Source: Dolichospermum sp. DET69 (GTDB lineage Bacteria; Cyanobacteriota; Cyanobacteriia; Cyanobacteriales; Nostocaceae). From it: a stretch of DNA of 64,000 bases. A model generated the notes under the pieces. It was not told the DNA's origin. It saw nothing but the letters and a program-made list of their open reading frames with translations, and made no database searches. The stretch lies in the NCBI GenBank assembly GCA_017355425.1, contig CP070233.1, positions 4,993,501 to 5,057,500 on the forward strand, given 5' to 3'. The position numbers and the translations under genes are program-made. Shown here in pieces: positions 45,746 through 58,877 of this stretch. Position 1 is the stretch's first letter; the number at the start of each line of letters is the position of its first letter.

Positions 45746-45800
45746 TAGAATATATGTATATACTAAGTTAAGTCTAGCATATCAAGGTGGTGATTGTAAA

Positions 45801-45944
45801 TTGCTAACAAATTATGTATATAAAATCCGCCCCAATATTAGCCAGTCCAATAAAATGGATAACTGGCTAGATATGCTCCGGTCTACTTACAATTGGAGTT
45901 TGGCTGACAGAATAGCTCAATACAACCAGCAGTTTATTCAAGGG
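45801..45944 (+). pseudogene. tnpB: tnpB 5' fragment
   Basis: 48 codons from a TTG at 45801 with AGGTGGTG upstream: MLTNYVYKIRPNISQSNKMD then NWLDMLRSTYNWSLADRIAQ and YNQQFIQG. This is the N-terminus of a cyanobacterial TnpB nuclease. Similarity stops after FIQG, about 35 bases before the omega-RNA of the IscB locus, and the 3' part of a tnpB resumes in the same orientation at 49083. About 150 codons of the middle, including the first RuvC aspartate, are missing. Confidence 0.75.
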
Positions 45945-45977
45945 ATCATTCTAAAACGTAGTAATACGGATTAGATG

Positions 45978-46110
45978 TGAACCAGACCACCCTGAGCGTA
46001 ATCAAAGGGTAACTGTTATTTAAGTCAAGACACCTTGGGATTCGCTAGTTCCATGCTCTGTCGGTACTGATTAAACATTCCGAAAGGAAAGTGTCTTTAC
46101 CTTAACAAGC
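45978..46110 (+). ncRNA. omega-RNA of the IscB locus
   Basis: Lies directly 5' of iscB, as IscB omega-RNAs do. It is strongly similar to the minus-strand sequence at 49860-49984: shared blocks in order are CCAGACCACCCT, AAGGGTA, GTTATTT, GACACC, AGTTCC, TGCTCTGTC and ATTAAACA. Similarity begins at TGAACCAGACC and stops upstream of it, as expected where a flank-derived guide joins the scaffold. Exact ends are not determinable from sequence. The guide would come from the bases just before 45978. Confidence 0.8.
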
Positions 46111-46177
46111 TTAGATAACCAGGTTGAAGCAAACTTTACTTAGAAATAAGGATTGGTCAAACAGACCAAATTTAACA

Positions 46178-47425
46178 ATGTCAAATTTCGTTTTTCTAAT
46201 TGATGCTAACAAAACGCCGATGAATCCTATTCATCCAGCACAAGCTAAAAAGCTTTTGAATAGCGGTAAAGCAGCAGTATTTCGCCGCTTCCCGTTTGTC
46301 TTAATCATGAATCGTGTAGTCGAAAATATCGTTACTTGTCCCATTGATTTAAAGATAGATCCCGGCTCTAAATTTACAGGTATTTCCTTGGTAAATAACC
46401 GAGATGAGGTTATTTGGGGAATGGAATTACAGCATCGTGGTGATGTAATCAAAGGTGAGTTGGAAACACGCAGAGGAATTAGGCGTAGTAGAAGAAACCG
46501 CCATACTCGCTATAGAAAGCCACGGTTTTTGAATAGAACCCGCACAAGAAGTTGGTTAGCTCCAAGTTTAAAACATCGGGTATTGACTACTAACACTTGG
46601 GTCAAAAGATTAATAAAATATGCCCCAATTGCAGCTATTACTCAAGAGTTAGTTAGATTTGATTTACAACAATTAGAGAACCCTGAGATATCGGGAATAG
46701 AGTATCAGCAAGGGGAGTTACAAGGTTACGAAGTTAGAGAGTATTTACTAGAGAAATGGGAGAGAAAATGTAGCTACTGTGATGCAAAAGATATCCCGCT
46801 TCAAATAGAACATATTCAACCTAAAGCGAAAGAAGGAAGTAACAGAATAAGTAATTTATGCTTATCCTGTGAAAAATGCAATCAAAAAAAAGGAACACAG
46901 GACATTGAAAAGTTTTTGGCTAAAAAACCAGAACTCTTAACAAAAATTAAGTTTCAGTCAAAAAGACCTTTAAAGGATGCGGCTGCTGTTAACTCTACAA
47001 GATGGGATTTATTCCACACTTTAAAAGAAACTGGATTACCAATTACGACAGCTTCTGGTGGAAGGACAAAATTTAATAGGAGAAAATTAAATCTCCCCAA
47101 GGAACACTGGATAGATGCGGCTTGTGTTGGAGTAGTAGAAAACTTAAATATATTAACAACAAATATATTAAAAGTGAAATCTACTGGACAGGGAACAAGA
47201 AGATTGTGCCGTATAAACAAGTTCGGTTTCCCTTGCTCTAACCCCCGACAAAAGTATGAACACAAATGGAACACAGGTGATATCGCCTGTTGTCAAGGTG
47301 TCTCAGGTCGAGTTGTAGTGCAATCTGCGACTAGGCTAGAGATAAGGGTAGACGGGAAAAGAATTGGCGGTAAACTTACTGATTTCAAAAAACTCCACAG
47401 CAAAGATGCTTATTCCTACTTTTGA
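46178..47425 (+). CDS. iscB: IscB RNA-guided nuclease (HNH/RuvC)
   Basis: 415 residues from the ATG at 46178; a TTG at 46124 is in frame but would lie in the RNA. PLMP domain (FLIDANKTPMNPIHPAQAKK), RuvC-I D61 (LKIDPGSKFTGIS), Arg-rich bridge helix (RRGIRRSRRNRHTRYRKPRF), RuvC-II E157 (ITQELVRFD), HNH with C198/C201, H212 (IEHIQPKAKEG) and C231/C234, RuvC-III D313 (EHWIDAACVG). A C-terminal target-interaction region ends HSKDAYSYF. All catalytic residues are present, so it looks intact. IscB is the ancestor-like relative of Cas9 and cuts DNA using omega-RNA. Confidence 0.95.
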   Translation: MSNFVFLIDANKTPMNPIHPAQAKKLLNSGKAAVFRRFPFVLIMNRVVENIVTCPIDLKIDPGSKFTGISLVNNRDEVIWGMELQHRGDVIKGELETRRGIRRSRRNRHTRYRKPRFLNRTRTRSWLAPSLKHRVLTTNTWVKRLIKYAPIAAITQELVRFDLQQLENPEISGIEYQQGELQGYEVREYLLEKWERKCSYCDAKDIPLQIEHIQPKAKEGSNRISNLCLSCEKCNQKKGTQDIEKFLAKKPELLTKIKFQSKRPLKDAAAVNSTRWDLFHTLKETGLPITTASGGRTKFNRRKLNLPKEHWIDAACVGVVENLNILTTNILKVKSTGQGTRRLCRINKFGFPCSNPRQKYEHKWNTGDIACCQGVSGRVVVQSATRLEIRVDGKRIGGKLTDFKKLHSKDAYSYF

Positions 47426-47453
47426 CTACGAAACACTACATTATTCTGGGATT

Positions 47454-48988
47454 AGGACGTAAGGCTAGAACTCACTGGTAACTTAAACCTCGGTACAAAG
47501 GTCAGTTCAACTAGGCGAGTATGGATTCCCAAGCCTGGAACGGAAGAGAAACGACCTTTGGGCATACCTACAATGAAAGACCGAGCCTTGCAAGCACTTG
47601 TCAAACTGGCATTAGAGCCAGAATGGGAAGCGCGATTTGAACCTAACTCATACGGGTTCAGAGCCGGACGCTCAGGCCATGATGCGGTAGAAGCAATATT
47701 TAACGCTATCAACGGGAAACCAAAATATGTTCTCGATGCCGATATTGCCAAATGTTTTGACCGCATCAACCAGGAAAAACTGCTAATAAAATTGAATACA
47801 TCCCCCACCATCCGCCGACAAATTCGCGCATGGTTAAAAGCGGGAGTGATGGACAGTAAGCAGTTGTTTCCAACATCTGAGGGTACGCCACAGGGCGGGG
47901 TAATTTCCCCATTACTGGCAAACATTGCCCTTCACGGGATGGAAGAACGGATTAAACAATACGCCGATACCTTCCCTCGCAAAAGTGGTCTGGGTAAACG
48001 GGATAACCGTAGAAGCCTAAGTTTAATTCGTTATGCCGATGATTTCGTGATTCTCCATGAAAACTTAACCGTTGTCCAAAGATGTAAAGAGATTATCTCT
48101 GAATGGTTACAAGGCATGGGTTTGGAATTAAAGCCTAGTAAAACGAGACTCGCTCACACCCTCATACAGTATGAGCAAGAAAAACCAGGGTTCGACTTCC
48201 TTGGTTTTACGATACAACAATTTCCAGTAGGAAAGTATCACTCGAAGCAGGGATTTAAGACAATCATCACCCCAAGCAAGCAGAAGCAAAAGGTACATTA
48301 CGAACAAATCGCCAGGGTTATCGAGGCTCACAAGGCAGCACCACAAGCGGCACTAATTAGCCGTTTAAACCCAATCATTAGGGGATGGGCTAACTACTAC
48401 GAGACCGTGGTAAGTAAGGAGGTTTTCTCAGATATAGATGACCTCACGTACCAAAAGTTAAGCTCTTGGGCAAAACGCCGCCACCCCAAAAAGAACGGGG
48501 AATGGGTGTCAAAAAGGTATTGGCAATCCATAGACGGTGATAACTGGGTATTCGCAACCAGGAAGGAAGGTTTGACCCCACTTCGGTTAATAAACCATGC
48601 CGACACGCCAATAGTGCGTCATGTGAAAGTCAAAGGCGAATCGTCACCATACGACGGAAATCTGGTTTACTGGAGTACAAGAATGGGTAATAACCCAGAA
48701 ATGCCAACCAGAGTATCAAAACTCCTGAAAAAGCAAAAGGGGAAATGTACCCACTGTGAAATGTTTTTCCGTGAAGACGATGTGATGGAAGTTGACCATA
48801 TCATCCCAAAATCGAAAGGTGGAAAGGACGAGTATAAGAATCTTCAACTTTTACACAGACATTGCCACGATACAAAGACAGCCAATAATGGCAGTCCTGG
48901 CACAAAATCCGGCTGCAATAGTGCCGAGCCTAAGCCCACCAGAAAAATTGAAAAAGTCGAAGGAAAATGGGTAATGAGGTGTGCATGA
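47454..48988 (+). pseudogene. Group II intron reverse transcriptase/maturase, 5'-truncated
   Basis: An open frame from just after a stop at 47451 carries TRRVWIPKPGTEEKRPLGIP, then TMKDRALQALVKLALEPEWE; the first in-frame ATG is 47558. RT motifs are present from the second half of RT1 onward (FEPNSYGFRAGRSGHDAVEA, TPQGGVISPLLANI, RYADDFVIL), then a maturase domain (PIIRGWANYYETVVSKEVFS) and a C-terminal HNH (CTHC, VDHIIPKSKGGKDEYKNLQL, CHDTK). About 80 N-terminal residues and the intron 5' half are missing, 28 bases after the iscB stop. Retrohoming is not expected without the 5' domains. Confidence 0.9.
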
Positions 48989-49007
48989 CAAGCACTAAAT
49001 CATTGAG

Positions 49008-49082
49008 GAGCCGTGTGAGGTGAAAGTCTCAAGCACGGTTTTGAAGACCAACGGGGTTGGTGACAACCTCGTTGAGTTTACT
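49008..49082 (+). ncRNA. Group II intron domains V and VI
   Basis: GAGCCGTGTGAGGTGAAAGT then CTCAAGCACGGTTT (49008-49041) is a canonical domain V hairpin with a GAAA tetraloop. Domain VI follows with CAACGGGGTTG...CAACCTCGTTG. The intron 3' end is near GTTGAGTTTAC, after which tnpB coding resumes in frame (TKLVHLSDRYQIDNPKF). Confidence 0.88.
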
Positions 49083-49634
49083 AAACTTGTCCATCTCTCC
49101 GACAGATATCAAATTGATAATCCTAAATTCTCAACTAATAAAAAAGTTAGACGCACCTTGAAAATTAGGCAGCGACGGGTTAATCGTAAAGTCAAAGGCA
49201 GCAAGAATCGTAAAAAAGCAGCTAATAATGTAGGACGTTTTCACAAAAAGATTACAGATAAACGAACAGCTTATCAATGGAATGTTGCTAATACAATAGT
49301 TTCTAGAAAGGTTGATGCTATTGCCTTAGAAGATTTAAACATCTCTGGAATGTTAACACGTTGCCAGGTGAAAACTGATGAAAAAACTGGGAGATTTTTA
49401 AAGAATGGGCAATCAAGAAAGAAGGGGTTAAACCGTTCTATCTCTGACGCAAGTTGGAGTGATTTGATTTTAAAAATTGAGTATCTCGCTGTAAAGCAAG
49501 GAAAAGTTGTCATTAAAATCAATCCTAAATACTCCAGTCAAGAATGCAGAAATTGTGGGCATACTGATAAGTCAAACCGTGATGGTGAGAAATTCATAGG
49601 AATACCCGGTAAGTGGGAAACTCAGCGGCTTTAG
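49083..49634 (+). pseudogene. tnpB: tnpB 3' fragment, C-terminus truncated
   Basis: About 183 codons: KLVHLSDRYQIDNPKF, RQRRVNRKVKGSKNRKKAAN, VDAIALEDLNISGML (RuvC-II Glu) and INPKYSSQECRNCGHTDKSN. The frame then enters another element end at 49605 and reads GIPGKWETQRL to a stop. It lacks the RuvC-I aspartate, the second CxxC of the zinc knuckle and the RuvC-III aspartate. Together with 45801-45944 it is what remains of one tnpB into which the IscB locus and a group II intron were placed. Confidence 0.85.
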
Positions 49635-49660
49635 CCCTGAGAGGGAAACGGCACGGGCGG
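49605..49660. mobile_element. Element end C with covarying hairpin
   Basis: CCCGGTAAGTGGGAAA is followed by the hairpin CTCAGCGGCTTTAGCCCTGA G (49621-49641) and GAGGGAAACGGCACG. It matches the inverted end of element A. It cuts off the tnpB 3' end. A second hairpin GGCGGTAAT...ATTACCGCC follows at 49658-49697. Confidence 0.75.
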
Positions 49661-49859
49661 TAATAAAGGCTTTGAATCTTTTTTCATTACCGCCTTGGAG
49701 TTAAGAAATTTGGGGTACTTTTGTGATGTACTTTCAACGGGACAATTACCGATTCAAATTTCTCGACTCTGTACGCATAATGTGTTGCACGCGATGTGCC
49801 TCCCTTTCGGGGTGATGTTAGCAACGACTGCGTTATAAGAGCTTTTTATACTTGCAACA
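49661..49859. other. Spacer inside the omega-RNA-bearing remnant
   Basis: About 200 bases between element end C and the minus-strand omega-RNA. A minus-strand frame at about 49690-49835 reads TSPRKGGTSRATHYAYRVEK then FESVIVPLKVHHKSTPNFL. It looks protein-like but has no good start, and it is probably a remnant of the lost element interior. Confidence 0.4.
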
Positions 49860-49984
49860 CTGTTTCAGTGACCTTAAAACTGTTTAATTGCAAATGACAG
49901 AGCAGGGAACTAGCTTCGCATTCGGTGGGTGTCGTGACTCAAATAACGGCTACCCTTCGACTTACGTTTAGGGTGGTCTGGTCA
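49860..49984 (-). ncRNA. Second omega-RNA-like sequence without adjacent iscB
   Basis: Reading the minus strand from 49984: CCAGACCACCCT (49981-49970), AAGGGTAGCC, GTTATTT (49947-49941), GACACC (49933-49928), AGTTCC (49911-49906), TGCTCTGTC (49904-49896) and ATTAAACA (49888-49881), with the order and spacing of the omega-RNA before iscB. Similarity again begins just at the CCAGACC boundary. On the minus side downstream there is no iscB, only about 200 bases and element end C. It may be an orphan, trans-acting omega-RNA or a deletion relic. Confidence 0.75.
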
Positions 49985-50033
49985 GTACAGCTTGTTTGAT
50001 TACTCTTGCAAGCTCAGTCCCTTTAGGGCTGGG

Positions 50034-50370
50034 TTACTGACCTATAAATGATTCACGTTCATCTTCAGACATAGTATCCCAACTTAGGGACTTCCAAATA
50101 AAAAAATGTCCCAAAACTGACGCAAAAATTCTCTCTCTGTGTTCTCTGTGCCTCTGTGGTTCGTTTATTGGGATAATTTATTTCTTGGAAGTCCCTTAAA
50201 CCACGTCCAGTACATAAGTTATGTAGTTGAGTTTCAGCATACTCCATGCGAGACTCACGCCCATTTTCGCTTTCCTTAGCTAGTGCTAATAAGACTACCC
50301 GTTTACTTTCTGGGGGTAGTTGCTTGACTAATTCAATAATTTGCGATTCGCTCAATGTTAATATTGGCAT
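50034..50370 (-). pseudogene. Small antitoxin-like gene split by a MITE
   Basis: From the ATG at 50370 (GGAGGT ribosome binding site): MPILTLSESQIIELVKQLPP, ESKRVVLLALAKESENGRES and ...LHNLCTGRGL, then the 109-bp element at 50087-50195. Removing the element and one copy of the TTA duplication restores the frame exactly as GRGLSWDTMSEDERESFI. The end (GQ, stop) is already in foreign sequence, so the original C-terminus is also lost. The family is the small cyanobacterial antitoxin type ending in WDxMSEDERxxFIDDL. Confidence 0.82.
50087..50195. mobile_element. 109-bp MITE with TTA target duplication
   Basis: Ends GGGACTTCCAAATAAA and TTTATTTCTTGGAAGTCCC are inverted repeats. TTA flanks both sides (50084-50086 and 50196-50198). 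The interior has TCTCTGTGTTCTCTGTGCCT. The TTGGAAGTC end is shared with the dispersed repeat family at 5414-5562. Confidence 0.88.
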
Positions 50371-50454
50371 GATAATTACCTCCATTTCTATTTTACATAA
50401 CTTAGCAGAGTACAATCATGTGATTACTTATTAACATCTATATTAATGTCAGAA

Positions 50455-50667
50455 TCAGGATTTAAAAAGAGGTAAATCAAAATCATCAGTCATTGTTACT
50501 TGTCCCTTAGCACTACCAAATTTAGGACGAATTTTAACTGGTAATACAGGAATTAACTTCACCACAGGTTGATTATCCTTCATGATGATAATTTCATCAC
50601 CACTAATTGCTGCTTCAATTAAATCAGACAAGTGTTGAGATGCTTCATTCACAGTAATTTGTTGCAT
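50455..50667 (-). CDS. Phd/YefM-family antitoxin
   Basis: 70 residues: MQQITVNEASQHLSDLIEAA, SGDEIIIMKDNQPVVKLIPV, then GSAKGQVTMTDDFDLPLFKS. A Phd/YefM N-terminal DNA-binding fold with the toxin-binding tail typical of VapB-like cyanobacterial members. No toxin gene follows directly on the minus strand. A frameshifted second copy is at 51279-51492. Confidence 0.88.
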   Translation of the reverse strand: MQQITVNEASQHLSDLIEAAISGDEIIIMKDNQPVVKLIPVLPVKIRPKFGSAKGQVTMTDDFDLPLFKS

Positions 50668-51278: not shown

Positions 51279-51492
51279 TCAGGATTTAAAAAGAGGTGCA
51301 TCAAAATCATCAGTCATTGTGACTTGTCCCTTAGCACTACCAGGTTGACGACGGTGTTTAACTGGTAATACAGGAATTAACTTCACCACAGGCCTGATTA
51401 TCTTTCATGATGATAATTTCATCACCACCAAGTGCTGCTTCAATGAAATCAGATAAATGTTGAGATGCTTCATTCACAGTAATTTGTTGCAT
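51279..51492 (-). pseudogene. Frameshifted second copy of the Phd/YefM antitoxin
   Basis: From the ATG at 51492 it reads MQQITVNEASQHLSDFIEAA LGGDEIIIMKDNQ and then shifts: CAGGCCTGTGG has one base more than the CAACCTGTGG of the intact copy. The next frame continues PVVKLIPVLPVKHRR, then GSAKGQVTMTDDFDAPLFKS. Flanking bases (CTATATTAATGT before the stop) match too, so a block of about 240 bp was duplicated around the DUF4258-DUF2283 pair. Confidence 0.88.
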
Positions 51493-51554
51493 AATTACCA
51501 CCTTTAGTTTTATATGTGCTACTCAACCAACAATTCTATTCTCCATTAAAAACA

Positions 51555-54788: not shown

Positions 54789-57700
54789 ATGATTACACCC
54801 AAACAAATTATTGAAGATATCCGTAAAAACACTTATGGAATTGGCTTACAGACTGACCAAGCTGCTCAAGCAGTTATTGACAGCATCAGAAAAAGTCTGA
54901 ACAGCGCACTCGAACGACTTTCAATAGACCTTTATTCTAAAGAAACTCATTTTGTATTAGAACTTATTCAAAATGCAGACGATAACCAATATCAAAATGA
55001 AGTTATTCCTACATTAAGTTTAACGATAGAAGCAGAAAAAATTATTGTTCAAAACAATGAAATTGGATTTAGTGAGGATAATGTCAGAGCTATTTGTAAT
55101 GTAGGACGTAGTACAAAAACTAAGGTAGAAGGATACATTGGTGAAAAAGGAATAGGATTTAAATCAGTATTTCGTATTAGTGATGAACCTCAAATCTTTT
55201 CCAATGAATTTCAGTTCCATTTTCAGACCCAAGATGATGAAAATAAATTAGGGTTTGTGACTCCTTATTGGATTGAAACAGTTCCTGACTATGTTGATTC
55301 TAATTTAACTAATATTATTTTACCACTTCGAGAATCAGCTAAAGATGATTTAGGAAAATTAGGTGAAATTGAACATACATTGATTCTCTTTTTGCGCCAA
55401 CTTAAAACCGTTAAAATAGATAATATAGTTGACGATAAATTTCACCAAATTACACGTTTAGATAAGGATGAAAAGATAGAAATACAAGAAACAACAGAAT
55501 CGGGATTAAAAACACATTGCTATAAATTAGTTAAAAAAGGTTTAATTGTACCCGAATCTATTCAAGAATCAAAAAGAGAAAATATCAAATCTACTGAGCT
55601 AATTCTTGGCTTTAGCTTGCAAGAAGATGGTTCAGCAGATACCAGATTAGAACAAAAAGTTTTTGCTTTTCTTCCTACCCGCAGTTATGGATTTAAGTTT
55701 TTGATTCAAGCTGATTTTCTAGTTCCAGCTAACCGGGAAGATATTCACAAAGATACACAATGGAATAAATGGATTAGAGATAATATTGCAAGTACATTTT
55801 TGTTCGCTATAGAGAAATTTAAACAAGATAGTAATTTGCAAAAAACCTATTATGATTATATCCCACTTCATAGCGAAGTTAAAGATGAGTTTTTTGCTTC
55901 TGTAGTTAGCGAAATTCATAATCAACTAAAAGTCAGTAAATGTATTTTAAGTGAATCAGGAAAATGGCAAATTCCCGCTCATGTTGTGCAGGTAGATGAG
56001 CAGGTTAGGAAATTAATTTCTAATACTGATTTACAAGAATTACTCAACAAAGAGTATATCCATCCTCAAGTTAAAGCTAAATTCGATCTTCTTGAATCTC
56101 TTGGGGTTAAAGAATTTAGCTTTGATGATTTATTGCAGTTTTTACAGAATAATGAATGGTTACAGAAACAAAGCGATAATTGGTTTATAAAGCTCTATAC
56201 TTACCTAAACAATCGTAACTCAACTGATTACTCAGAGTTACCCAGAATTAAGAAATTAAAGATTATTCCCTTAGAAAATAACGAATTAGCTTCAACTGCT
56301 GAGACATCAATATTTTTTCCATTTAATAATGCTGGAGAATATAGTTTTGAACTGCAATTTATTAAGAGAACGCTTTTAGAGCCAATTCCTAAGTCTGCTG
56401 TAACAGAATTTCTCAAAAAATTGGGTGTTCAGAATGCTTCGTGTTATGAAATTATCGAAAATCATATCTTACCCCTTTATAAAGGAGATAGTTGGAAAAG
56501 TAAAGCTAATCAGCTTTTAGGATATATTTGTTATATAAAAGACAACTTATTGGAATATGAAAAAGAGTTTAACAGAAGAAAAAATCCTTATCCTTACTCA
56601 TATCTCAAAGAAGAGCCTCTAAAAACTTTGAAAGAATTGCTATTGATAAAAACCGATAAAAATAGCTATTCTCGTCCAGCAAATGTTTATCTTTCTGCTA
56701 GTTATGGGAATCCAAACGAATTGGAAACATTATTCTTAGGAATACAAGATGTCTGGTTTGTATCACCAGAGTATATTCAATATTTAATGCAAATTGAAAA
56801 TCCTAGCGAAAAAGCAGAAAAAACTAGAGAGTGGAGAGAGTTTTTTATTAAGTTAGGAGTACATACTGTACCAAAAATAGATGTCAAAATACAAACTGCA
56901 CGTGGACGGTCTAATCAAAAAATAGATTATTCCCGAGAATACCCTATTTATAGTTCACCTCACATAATAAGAATTTTAGAAACCAAAAATGTAGATAAAA
57001 ATCAGAAATTGGCTAAACTTTTAGATAGTAATTGGGACTATTACAAGCAGTATAAATCTTGGCGAAATTATGCTTATGCTAATGGTGGTTTTTCTCCCTA
57101 CAGTTCTAATGATGCAGATTGGTTTACCAAAATTAAAACAGCAGTTTGGCTTCCTACGACAAAAGGCAAGTTAGCTAATCCTTCTGAAATTTTTCTGGAT
57201 AAAACAGAAACAGGTGCAATACTAGGAGATAGTGTTTCATACTTAGCTATTACTTTCAATAATCCAGATTTTATTAAAGACTTGGGAATAAAAGATAAAA
57301 TAACTGATCCCAAAGATTATGCTGATTGGTTGCTGGTATTATCCCGTAAAAAAGAACTTGATGAAAAAGATGAGGAATTAGTTCTCAAAATTTATCAGGA
57401 ATTAAATAAACCGGATATTACATCAAAAAAATGGTGGAAAAGCTTTATCGGTGAAAAAATATTTTGGACAAATAAAAAAATATTCTACACAGCTAGTAAA
57501 GTTTTGATAAATGATCATGATGAGGTTTATGAATTGTTTAAAGATAATCCTCAGATAGCTTTTCTCAAACTCCCCTCAAATTATTATCCTAAACTTCAAC
57601 ACTTTATCAAAGCGACTGGTATTCGCTATCTTTCACAGATTATTAAGACTGAATTAGCAATTGGAGAAGTACCAAAAGTTGAGGAAGAAAACCTGACTAA

Positions 57701-58877
57701 GCAAATTAAAGCTTTGACACCTTACATTTTACGTTATCTTTACCAAGAAGAACAGGAAATTTACCAACAGCTTAAAACCAATCACACCCTAATACAACTC
57801 AAAGATTTAGTGTGTTATCGGTTGGAAAAGCTGCAAATTAAATATCTTCTTGATCAGCAATCAGCATATACTCAAAGAAGTGCTTTTTTGGATAATGGAA
57901 ATCTCTACATCCAATCAGATAGTTTATCAAATACAGATGATTTAGCTTTAGAAATTTCTCAATTATTTGGTAATCCCAAGGGATTAGATAATTTCTTGAG
58001 TTTGCTATTTGAGAAAGGAACACCAGAAAAAATTGATAGCTTCATGAAAGCAAAAAAGATCCAATTACTACCTAATGAAGAAAAGGATTGGTTTGAGAAC
58101 TCAAATATTTATCTAGGAGAAACTAACTTTATAGAAATAACAGCAGAAAATAATCAAAGCATTGAGTTTACAGCGAACAAACATCAAAAAATAGAGCAAG
58201 ATAACTGTTTAGCTCAATCAGAATTAACAACTATATCTCTCAAAGATGAAGTATTTGATGATGCTCAATGGCAACCTGAGTGTGAACCTAGAGAAATTCT
58301 AGACATTGAGGTTGTTCAATGGACAAATGTACCTAATTCAGATACTATTTCTTTGAGTAGTAGCCAATCTGAATTACCGTCAAGTCCACCAATGATTCAA
58401 TTAATCAGAGAACTACGAACAATAGATAGAGATGAGCCGATTGAAAAGCCTAAACTAAGTGGTATTTGGGGTGAGAAATTTGCTGTTGAATATTTAAAGC
58501 GCAAGTTTATTGGTAAGTATTTCCAAGGAAATTTTGAAGAAAATAAAGACGGATTTTTTATCAAAATCAATAGTCAAATAGTAGTTGAAGTTCAGTGGTT
58601 AAACAAAACTCAAGAAACAACAGGATACGATATTAAATTAATTGAAAATGGTCGAGAAGATTACATAGAGGTTAAGTCTAGTCAACCTGGAGCAAAAAAA
58701 TTGATCAAGCTATCAGGTACTCAATGGAAATTAGCTGATGATTTGGGAGAAAACTTTCATATATATCGAGTTTATGATGCTGGAACTCAACAAGCTACAC
58801 TTATTGATATTTGTAATCCCACACAACTTTTTTCTGAAGGTAGTCTCCGTATAGATTCTATTTGTTTGCGGATTTAG
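54789..58877 (+). CDS. Large sacsin-like GHKL ATPase with C-terminal DUF3883/NOV domain
   Basis: 1362 residues. The N-terminal HSP90/histidine-kinase-like ATPase (about 1-250) has N-box E58-L-I-Q-N-A-D-D-N, NNEIGFSEDNVRAICNVGRS and GEKGIGFKSVF. A long helical middle (about 300-1150) has no recognised domain. The C-terminus (about 1220-1350, GIWGEKFAVEYLKRKFIGKY...GYDIKL...DYIEVKSS) is a DUF3883 domain with a D...E-x-K nuclease-like motif at about 1294-1296. Such proteins occur in defence islands. No helicase or methylase partner is adjacent; a purine-rich AAGAGAGTCAAGAA precedes the ATG. Confidence 0.85.
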   Translation: MITPKQIIEDIRKNTYGIGLQTDQAAQAVIDSIRKSLNSALERLSIDLYSKETHFVLELIQNADDNQYQNEVIPTLSLTIEAEKIIVQNNEIGFSEDNVRAICNVGRSTKTKVEGYIGEKGIGFKSVFRISDEPQIFSNEFQFHFQTQDDENKLGFVTPYWIETVPDYVDSNLTNIILPLRESAKDDLGKLGEIEHTLILFLRQLKTVKIDNIVDDKFHQITRLDKDEKIEIQETTESGLKTHCYKLVKKGLIVPESIQESKRENIKSTELILGFSLQEDGSADTRLEQKVFAFLPTRSYGFKFLIQADFLVPANREDIHKDTQWNKWIRDNIASTFLFAIEKFKQDSNLQKTYYDYIPLHSEVKDEFFASVVSEIHNQLKVSKCILSESGKWQIPAHVVQVDEQVRKLISNTDLQELLNKEYIHPQVKAKFDLLESLGVKEFSFDDLLQFLQNNEWLQKQSDNWFIKLYTYLNNRNSTDYSELPRIKKLKIIPLENNELASTAETSIFFPFNNAGEYSFELQFIKRTLLEPIPKSAVTEFLKKLGVQNASCYEIIENHILPLYKGDSWKSKANQLLGYICYIKDNLLEYEKEFNRRKNPYPYSYLKEEPLKTLKELLLIKTDKNSYSRPANVYLSASYGNPNELETLFLGIQDVWFVSPEYIQYLMQIENPSEKAEKTREWREFFIKLGVHTVPKIDVKIQTARGRSNQKIDYSREYPIYSSPHIIRILETKNVDKNQKLAKLLDSNWDYYKQYKSWRNYAYANGGFSPYSSNDADWFTKIKTAVWLPTTKGKLANPSEIFLDKTETGAILGDSVSYLAITFNNPDFIKDLGIKDKITDPKDYADWLLVLSRKKELDEKDEELVLKIYQELNKPDITSKKWWKSFIGEKIFWTNKKIFYTASKVLINDHDEVYELFKDNPQIAFLKLPSNYYPKLQHFIKATGIRYLSQIIKTELAIGEVPKVEEENLTKQIKALTPYILRYLYQEEQEIYQQLKTNHTLIQLKDLVCYRLEKLQIKYLLDQQSAYTQRSAFLDNGNLYIQSDSLSNTDDLALEISQLFGNPKGLDNFLSLLFEKGTPEKIDSFMKAKKIQLLPNEEKDWFENSNIYLGETNFIEITAENNQSIEFTANKHQKIEQDNCLAQSELTTISLKDEVFDDAQWQPECEPREILDIEVVQWTNVPNSDTISLSSSQSELPSSPPMIQLIRELRTIDRDEPIEKPKLSGIWGEKFAVEYLKRKFIGKYFQGNFEENKDGFFIKINSQIVVEVQWLNKTQETTGYDIKLIENGREDYIEVKSSQPGAKKLIKLSGTQWKLADDLGENFHIYRVYDAGTQQATLIDICNPTQLFSEGSLRIDSICLRI

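Follow-up and report, generated by a model that had tools for sequence, protein, structure and literature searches.

A nuclease-less IscB-family element with a complete omegaRNA gene in Dolichospermum, and its possible use as a guide in trans

Introduction

The nucleases associated with HEARO RNAs are IscB proteins, and their 5′ untranslated region is the guide RNA, as set out in sections of PMC9755519. Where an RNA of this kind stands without a nuclease gene, the question arises which protein it serves, if any. The question is posed by the window analysed here, a stretch of 64,000 nucleotides from Dolichospermum sp. DET69 (CP070233.1, positions 4,993,501 to 5,057,500), in which one such RNA precedes an iscB gene on the plus strand and a similar RNA lies by itself on the minus strand. 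The initial annotation regarded the latter as an orphan omegaRNA that may supply the neighbouring IscB with a second guide, the two forming a minimal two-target system.

An orphan omegaRNA within a short element

The orphan omegaRNA is real. The Rfam HEARO model (RF02033, the IscB omegaRNA) matches positions 49812–50041 of the minus strand with 119.7 bits (E 3.7e-24; gathering score 83), and the RNA occupies one side of an element between whose ends, 49598 and 50041, a nuclease gene is absent. The copies of the same kind elsewhere in the genome are called type A below, and the neighbouring iscB element belongs to type B. The features are as follows.

49598–50041, minus strand: the complete non-autonomous element (444 bp), its ends defined against 46 other type A copies
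50041, minus strand: left end of the element, GTCAGTAAC, the start of the scaffold
49598, minus strand: right end of the element, ..CCGGGTATTCCT, from aligned type A copies
49812–50041, minus strand: omegaRNA (HEARO, RF02033), 230 nt; covariance-model match and covarying fold of type A RNAs
49981–50041, minus strand: 5′ scaffold hairpin with three helices, helices 1–3 of the consensus fold
49598–49811, minus strand: element tail with right-end hairpin CTCAGGGCTAAAGCCGCTGAG, from aligned copies; the type A IscB element has a like end
50042–50063, minus strand: left flank with the presumed guide (last 16–22 nt before the scaffold); the same 22 nt with ATGA occur in congeners G012 and G004
49594–49597, minus strand: ATGA, the target motif, directly after the right end
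50042–50415, minus strand: 3′-truncated host gene holding the left end of the element; uninterrupted in congeners
49080–49597, plus strand: C-terminal part of tnpB (OrfB_IS605 40.1 bits, Cas12f1-like_TNB 41.9 bits), holding the right end of the element in antisense
45942–47459, plus strand: type B IscB element, 1518 bp, omegaRNA and iscB; boundaries from three copies with identical IscB
46178–47425, plus strand: iscB, 415 aa from this ATG (RRXRR 224 bits, HNH 41.7 bits)

The unit first proposed, 49860–49984, was thus too short. BLAST matches on plasmids of Dolichospermum and Trichormus start exactly at 50041 (query base 180), and the hairpin 50041–49981 is common to all 35 type A copies aligned, with L053 lacking the last two stem pairs; its stretch 49985–50041, which stops 4 nt before the 3′ foot of the stem, has a folding z of −1.81. 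The bases just 5′ of 49984, earlier taken for the guide, are part of this scaffold hairpin, and the presumed guide lies 5′ of 50041. The omegaRNA has no iscB directly on its 3′ side, as a complete IscB OMEGA locus does, and a scan of the window locus for promoters and terminators gave nothing exceeding shuffles. The element reads as a probable non-autonomous (MITE-like) member of the IscB family that has kept both ends and a complete omegaRNA gene, the nuclease gene having been deleted.

The surroundings hold other features. The host gene is interrupted by a small repeat at 50086–50196 with terminal GGGACTTCCAA/TTGGAAGTCCC-like ends, of which at least 10 further near-identical copies occur in the same genome among the best of 214 candidates. 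Two near-duplicate antitoxin-like genes lie at 50455–50667 (a Phd_YefM match) and 51280–51500 (recognised by eye), and a 1362-aa protein with Sacsin-type and NO VEIN C-terminal domains is encoded at 54789–58877, upstream of rbcL.

The neighbouring iscB element

The neighbour's protein matches the IscB chains of the PDB (E 2.7e-42 for TbaIscB and 1.2e-24 for OgeuIscB), and its RNA (45932–46139, plus strand) scores 85.8 bits against HEARO, just over the gathering score of 83 and lower than the orphan. The view that both sequences are omegaRNAs is upheld by the covariance model, and the sequence blocks described as common to them are found in their pairwise alignment. As was also described, the orphan has no adjoining iscB, the nearest of the seven in the genome being 2393 bp away on the opposite strand. 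Similarity between the two RNAs had been thought to break off at the boundary of guide and scaffold; the actual break lies within the scaffold, on the 3′ side of the first hairpin. Since the neighbour's RNA has its own, different 5′ hairpin (45944–45985, z −3.36) and both hairpins belong to the scaffolds, the guides would lie 5′ of 50041 on the minus strand and of 45942 on the plus strand. They do differ, as had been proposed.

Identity between the two RNAs is 61.4% overall and 66.7% in the core from ACCA on, and by their sequences they are to be placed in different omegaRNA subfamilies. A second guide for the type B IscB would be in keeping with the distance of 2393 bp and with the exact blocks that the two cores have in common, and since the cores are similar the neighbour may indeed use the orphan RNA. 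However, the scaffold subfamily, the 5′ hairpin and the right end all differ from those of the neighbour's element, and a least distance between any orphan and an iscB gene this small or smaller arises in 34% of 20,000 random placements (P 0.34).

The iscB element has a history of its own. Its protein is encoded by three copies that are 100% identical (288344, 2884182 and 5039678 on C1), which suggests recent movement. Its flanks stem from different genes, as do those of the orphan: in the region 45780–49600 the upstream flank reads by eye as the N-terminus of tnpB, and downstream follow a 5′-truncated group II intron protein (47558–48988), intron domain matches (49005–49081) and then the C-terminal part of tnpB.

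Census of HEARO RNAs and IscB genes

The genome (6.04 Mb, 2 contigs) contains 70 HEARO matches at E ≤ 0.001, 53 of them above the gathering score. For 14 of the 70 RNAs an RRXRR (IscB/IsrB) gene follows on the same strand within the next 5 kb; the other 56 are orphans. Type A, with the 5′ end GTCAGTAAC, accounts for 45 of them, and type B, with the 5′ end GGGATCATTC, for 11. The type A family as a whole numbers 47 copies with different flanks. Seven iscB genes, one of which contains stops, span at least residues 4–394 of the 415-aa query, and further RRXRR genes are of the IsrB kind, judged by length and a weak match. The closest named relatives of the IscB proteins are Dolichospermum and Anabaena records. 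There are 16 Y1_Tnp matches, none of them linked here to the type A family.

Across 16 congeneric genomes, HEARO and IscB counts rise together (rho 0.71, p 0.002), a rough correlation because the HEARO counts of the congeners are lower bounds: at most 32 candidates were scored per genome, and the genome under study gave 32 in that way versus 70 in the full count. Eight of 15 congeners carry relatives of the type A IscB (≥80% identity over a minimum of 390 of its 428 residues). In G012, with at least 16 HEARO matches, the IscB found is only 56% identical and no type A IscB is among the matches, so that orphans can apparently outlast the nuclease, unless the draft assembly hides it.

At five of six IsrB-type loci (L078, L080–L083), a 2–4 kb insert either lies between omegaRNA and isrB frame or interrupts the frame itself; the gaps measure 2214, 2208, 2214 and 4397 nt, and the frame of L078 is in two pieces. 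The inserts begin with GTGCGATTCG, which resembles the start of a group II intron.

Parentage of the type A family

An intact IscB element of type A at C1:396132 opens with the left end and RNA seen in the orphans, continues with iscB and closes with the orphans' right end. Since the orphans have both ends and the RNA in common with this nuclease-bearing element, they are best understood as internal-deletion derivatives of it, and the window orphan has both of these ends. Its RNA is 80.0% identical to that of the element at C1:396132 (74.3% in the core from ACCA on) and 77.7% identical to the RNA of a broken type A iscB. The nearest sibling, L020, is 98.2% identical across 444 bp and has other flanks. 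The type A IscB itself is 64% identical to the IscB of Dictyobacter aurantiacus, presumably a member of the Ktedonobacterales.

The two families also differ beyond their right ends. Since the pattern used below for start codons demands ATGA or ATAA, the frequency of ATGA was taken from a pattern that does not require it: ATGA stands exactly 15 nt past the right-end motif in 39 of 40 type A copies versus 1.6% at random places. Among type B copies the right end is followed by ATGGC or TAAGGC in 13 of 14, a count from a pattern that itself requires these letters, and L071 gave none.

The orphan thus appears, by descent, to come from the type A IscB element and is no obvious partner for the type B IscB next to it. 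The neighbour had been put forward as the natural partner, whereas the orphan's identity to the type A RNA (80.0% vs 61.4%) and its right end point elsewhere; nor does a minimal two-target arrangement fit a genome with 56 orphans, 11 of which belong to the type B family itself. Given type A parentage, these RNA identities and the chance proximity, a second guide for the neighbour alone was set aside as the main reading and is improbable, and both the partner and the guide first proposed for the orphan are probably wrong.

RNA fold and constraint

Of the 47 type A RNAs, 35 served to derive the fold; 33 of these are orphans and two are iscB-linked. In this alignment 99.2% of cells are paired, and 12 of 54 pairs have changed on both sides, as compared with 4.5 in shuffles and 0–3 in slid controls. 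Covariation supports the RNA fold. Absence of conserved structure and decay of stems relative to the iscB-linked copy had been named as grounds for doubting the orphan; a covarying fold was found. A decayed relic is not supported, as the orphan outscores the iscB-linked copy and every helix has siblings with intact pairing.

The RNA part also changes somewhat more slowly than the tail among orphans (119 of 3129 vs 169 of 3009 sites, p 0.0009), a modest difference from 14 nearest-neighbour pairs among 29 long-tail orphans in which sites are not independent. The pair formed by the window copy and L020 goes the opposite way, with five changes in the RNA and one in the tail.

These data bear on a sober alternative, a passive MITE for which only the DNA ends matter in transposition, the fold being inherited from IscB-bearing parents and put to no use in trans. 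Nuclease-less copies do outnumber iscB genes (56 vs 7), congeners in which no full-length IscB was detected carry HEARO matches as well (at least four in G008 and at least six in G009), and the structured left end may be a transposase substrate. Further, the authors of PMC8400943 treated HEARO RNAs in Limnospira indica as remnants of mobility and left them aside. Against it speak the pairing of 99.2% in 35 copies, 33 of which lack iscB, and the modestly slower change of the RNA part. A passive MITE is considered possible and clearly the less probable account. Conserved fold and different guide together make use in trans plausible.

Guide, insertion sites and history

On its left, the window copy is flanked by a stretch of a small gene that runs on uninserted in the congeners G012 and G004 (..GATGAACGTGAATCATTTATAG|ATGATTTAGTG..). 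The uninserted allele breaks at 50042/50041 in both, so the left break is exact. A search of 60 genomes with the last 16 nt plus ATGA, allowing two mismatches, found matches in five: perfect ones in G012 and G004, one with a single mismatch in G021, one with two in G059, and in the element's own genome only at its own edge, with two mismatches and reading guide plus GTCA. The left flank is the presumed guide; read on into ATGA, it is identical to the uninserted allele in sister species.

The right flank is of another origin, namely antisense tnpB, unlike the continuation of the left-flank gene. Because the two flanks come from different genes, the window locus must have been rearranged; recombination of a type A copy in the host gene with another in tnpB would explain this. 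A search of the same genome for the missing right flank yielded only a 35-nt piece, at a locus without a HEARO match.

Two further sites were compared one by one. A sibling of the window copy at hemA is inserted precisely on both sides; in 14 of 15 congeners the site lacks the element and matches exactly, and the match in the fifteenth begins at the junction. A type B site at a gene reading as rpsN is uninserted in 15 of 15 congeners, and since an extra AT (2 nt) stands at its left junction relative to the congeners' alleles, the precision of type B is less clear than that of type A. Judging from the flanks, each orphan carries a different putative guide, taken from its landing place.

Insertion before start codons

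The right end was located for 42 of the 47 type A copies; five without a recognised right end (L022, L028, L059, L070 and L077) were dropped. With a start-like ATG defined by at least 60 open codons downstream and an in-frame stop no more than 30 codons upstream, 20 of the 42 copies lie directly before one, six lie inside a long frame (including the window copy) and 16 are intergenic. The control, 20 stretches of 20 kb in which HEARO copies were left, gave 5.8% start-like among 3269 ATGA sites in 400 kb, or 150 of 1043 (14.4%) outside gene interiors (odds ratio 5.4, Fisher p 6e-7). The congeners G005 and G010 agree, with 8 of 16 usable copies start-like (p 0.0009, against the control from the window's own genome); there, 20 of the 21 HEARO places listed were fetched, and two with another 5′ end and two without a right end were dropped.

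Pfam matches were obtained for 13 of the 20 start-like frames, including glutamyl-tRNA reductase and P-II, although translation of the P-II frame probably begins 17 codons downstream. GAGG precedes the ATG in 16 of the 42 right ends. TATAAT-like hexamers are denser 20–80 nt upstream of the start-like set than further out, a comparison made without a formal test and suggestive of a promoter-like signal.

From these counts it seems an even bet that type A IscB elements dock before start codons (ATGA being ATG-A), placing guide and omegaRNA in 5′ leaders, so that one or two nucleases would serve dozens of leader guides in trans. An outside promoter is needed because the guide lies outside the element, and in sense-direction leader insertions the promoter of the host gene would transcribe guide and omegaRNA together. 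Docking, if true, would thereby explain how an omegaRNA is transcribed whose guide is not its own. The GAGG that part of the right ends place before the ATG could let the host gene still be translated.

Outside the genus the picture is thinner. The right-end pattern tuned to type A was found in 7 of 46 IscB loci (L172–L217, of 62 fetched) and had no match in 20 HEARO loci of other genera; with a looser pattern, ATGA or GTGA opened at least 90 codons in 5 of the same 20. In two Spirochaetales loci (L213:2500–4284 and L215:2500–4286), GGAGG stands before ATGA, with frames of 463 and 274 codons. In Calothrix (L180), a candidate right end has GGAGG just before ATGA, with a frame of 147 codons. Left ends were not identified in these three candidates, which look as though the start-codon pattern might extend beyond the genus.

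That 20 of 42 type A copies sit directly before start-like ATGs could also mean that the element serves the genes it precedes, as a leader regulator. The hemA and rpsN sites, however, are uninserted in nearly all congeners and give no sign of retention, and the window copy is neither at a start codon nor in a leader. Host regulation is accordingly regarded as highly improbable.

Proposed mechanism

The reading preferred here is that the orphan is a non-autonomous derivative whose RNA guides the type A IscB in trans, to which, taken jointly with its place in the IscB family, we assign a probability of roughly 0.6. A transposase acting in trans, of the IS200/IS605 type, would move the element, and read-in transcription from the flank would yield guide plus scaffold. 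The type A IscB, most likely the one at C1:396132, would use the orphan RNA to cut the uninserted site (guide plus ATGA), and repair from the occupied copy would restore the element at the cut. The occupied site would be spared, since GTCAG comes after the guide there. In this picture very few nucleases would serve 45 guides, one for each type A orphan.

Comparison with known systems

With the IscB-omegaRNA (OMEGA) system, RF02033, the window copy shares the covariance model, RRXRR and HNH IscB homologues in the genome, a guide 5′ of the scaffold and a target motif of the ATGA type; it differs in having no nuclease gene. A HEARO RNA of Limnospira maxima functions with IsrB, as reported in part of PMC12286853. 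According to PMC11870625, transposition of IS200/IS605 elements follows a 'peel and paste' route, and TnpB is a transposon-retention device that uses the flank as guide.

A single stray RNA becomes a testable genome-wide case, with 45 natural guides, one scaffold type, known insertion places and few nucleases. At each of the sites compared, namely the one in the window, hemA and, for type B, rpsN, sister genomes hold uninserted alleles, and guiding in trans and transposon retention by IscB thereby become measurable.

Relatives of such an arrangement are known. PATEs and IS200/IS605 MITEs that carry omegaRNA alone were reportedly described by Meers et al. in 2023 for TnpB-type families; they resemble the present elements in having ends and omegaRNA with the nuclease elsewhere, whereas here the type is IscB and two orphan subfamilies (45 and 11 copies) occur in one genome. 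Altae-Tran et al. are said to have reported trans-encoded omegaRNAs for the IscB of Ktedonobacter racemifer in 2021. There, too, orphan omegaRNAs occur beside few IscB genes, in a different lineage.

A literature search that did not cover start codons found no publications on ORF-less IscB elements, and start codons do not come up in PMC9755519, where that term was looked up. Many ORF-less HEARO copies, inserted beside ATGA or GTGA, are nevertheless said to have been noted in Arthrospira/Limnospira maxima by Weinberg et al. in 2009, likewise in a single cyanobacterial genome. The orphan itself is of a known kind, and docking before start codons is the part that may be new. Compared with the copies of that genome, the parent element, both ends, the presumed guide and the uninserted alleles have here been traced, and the adjacency to start codons has been counted.
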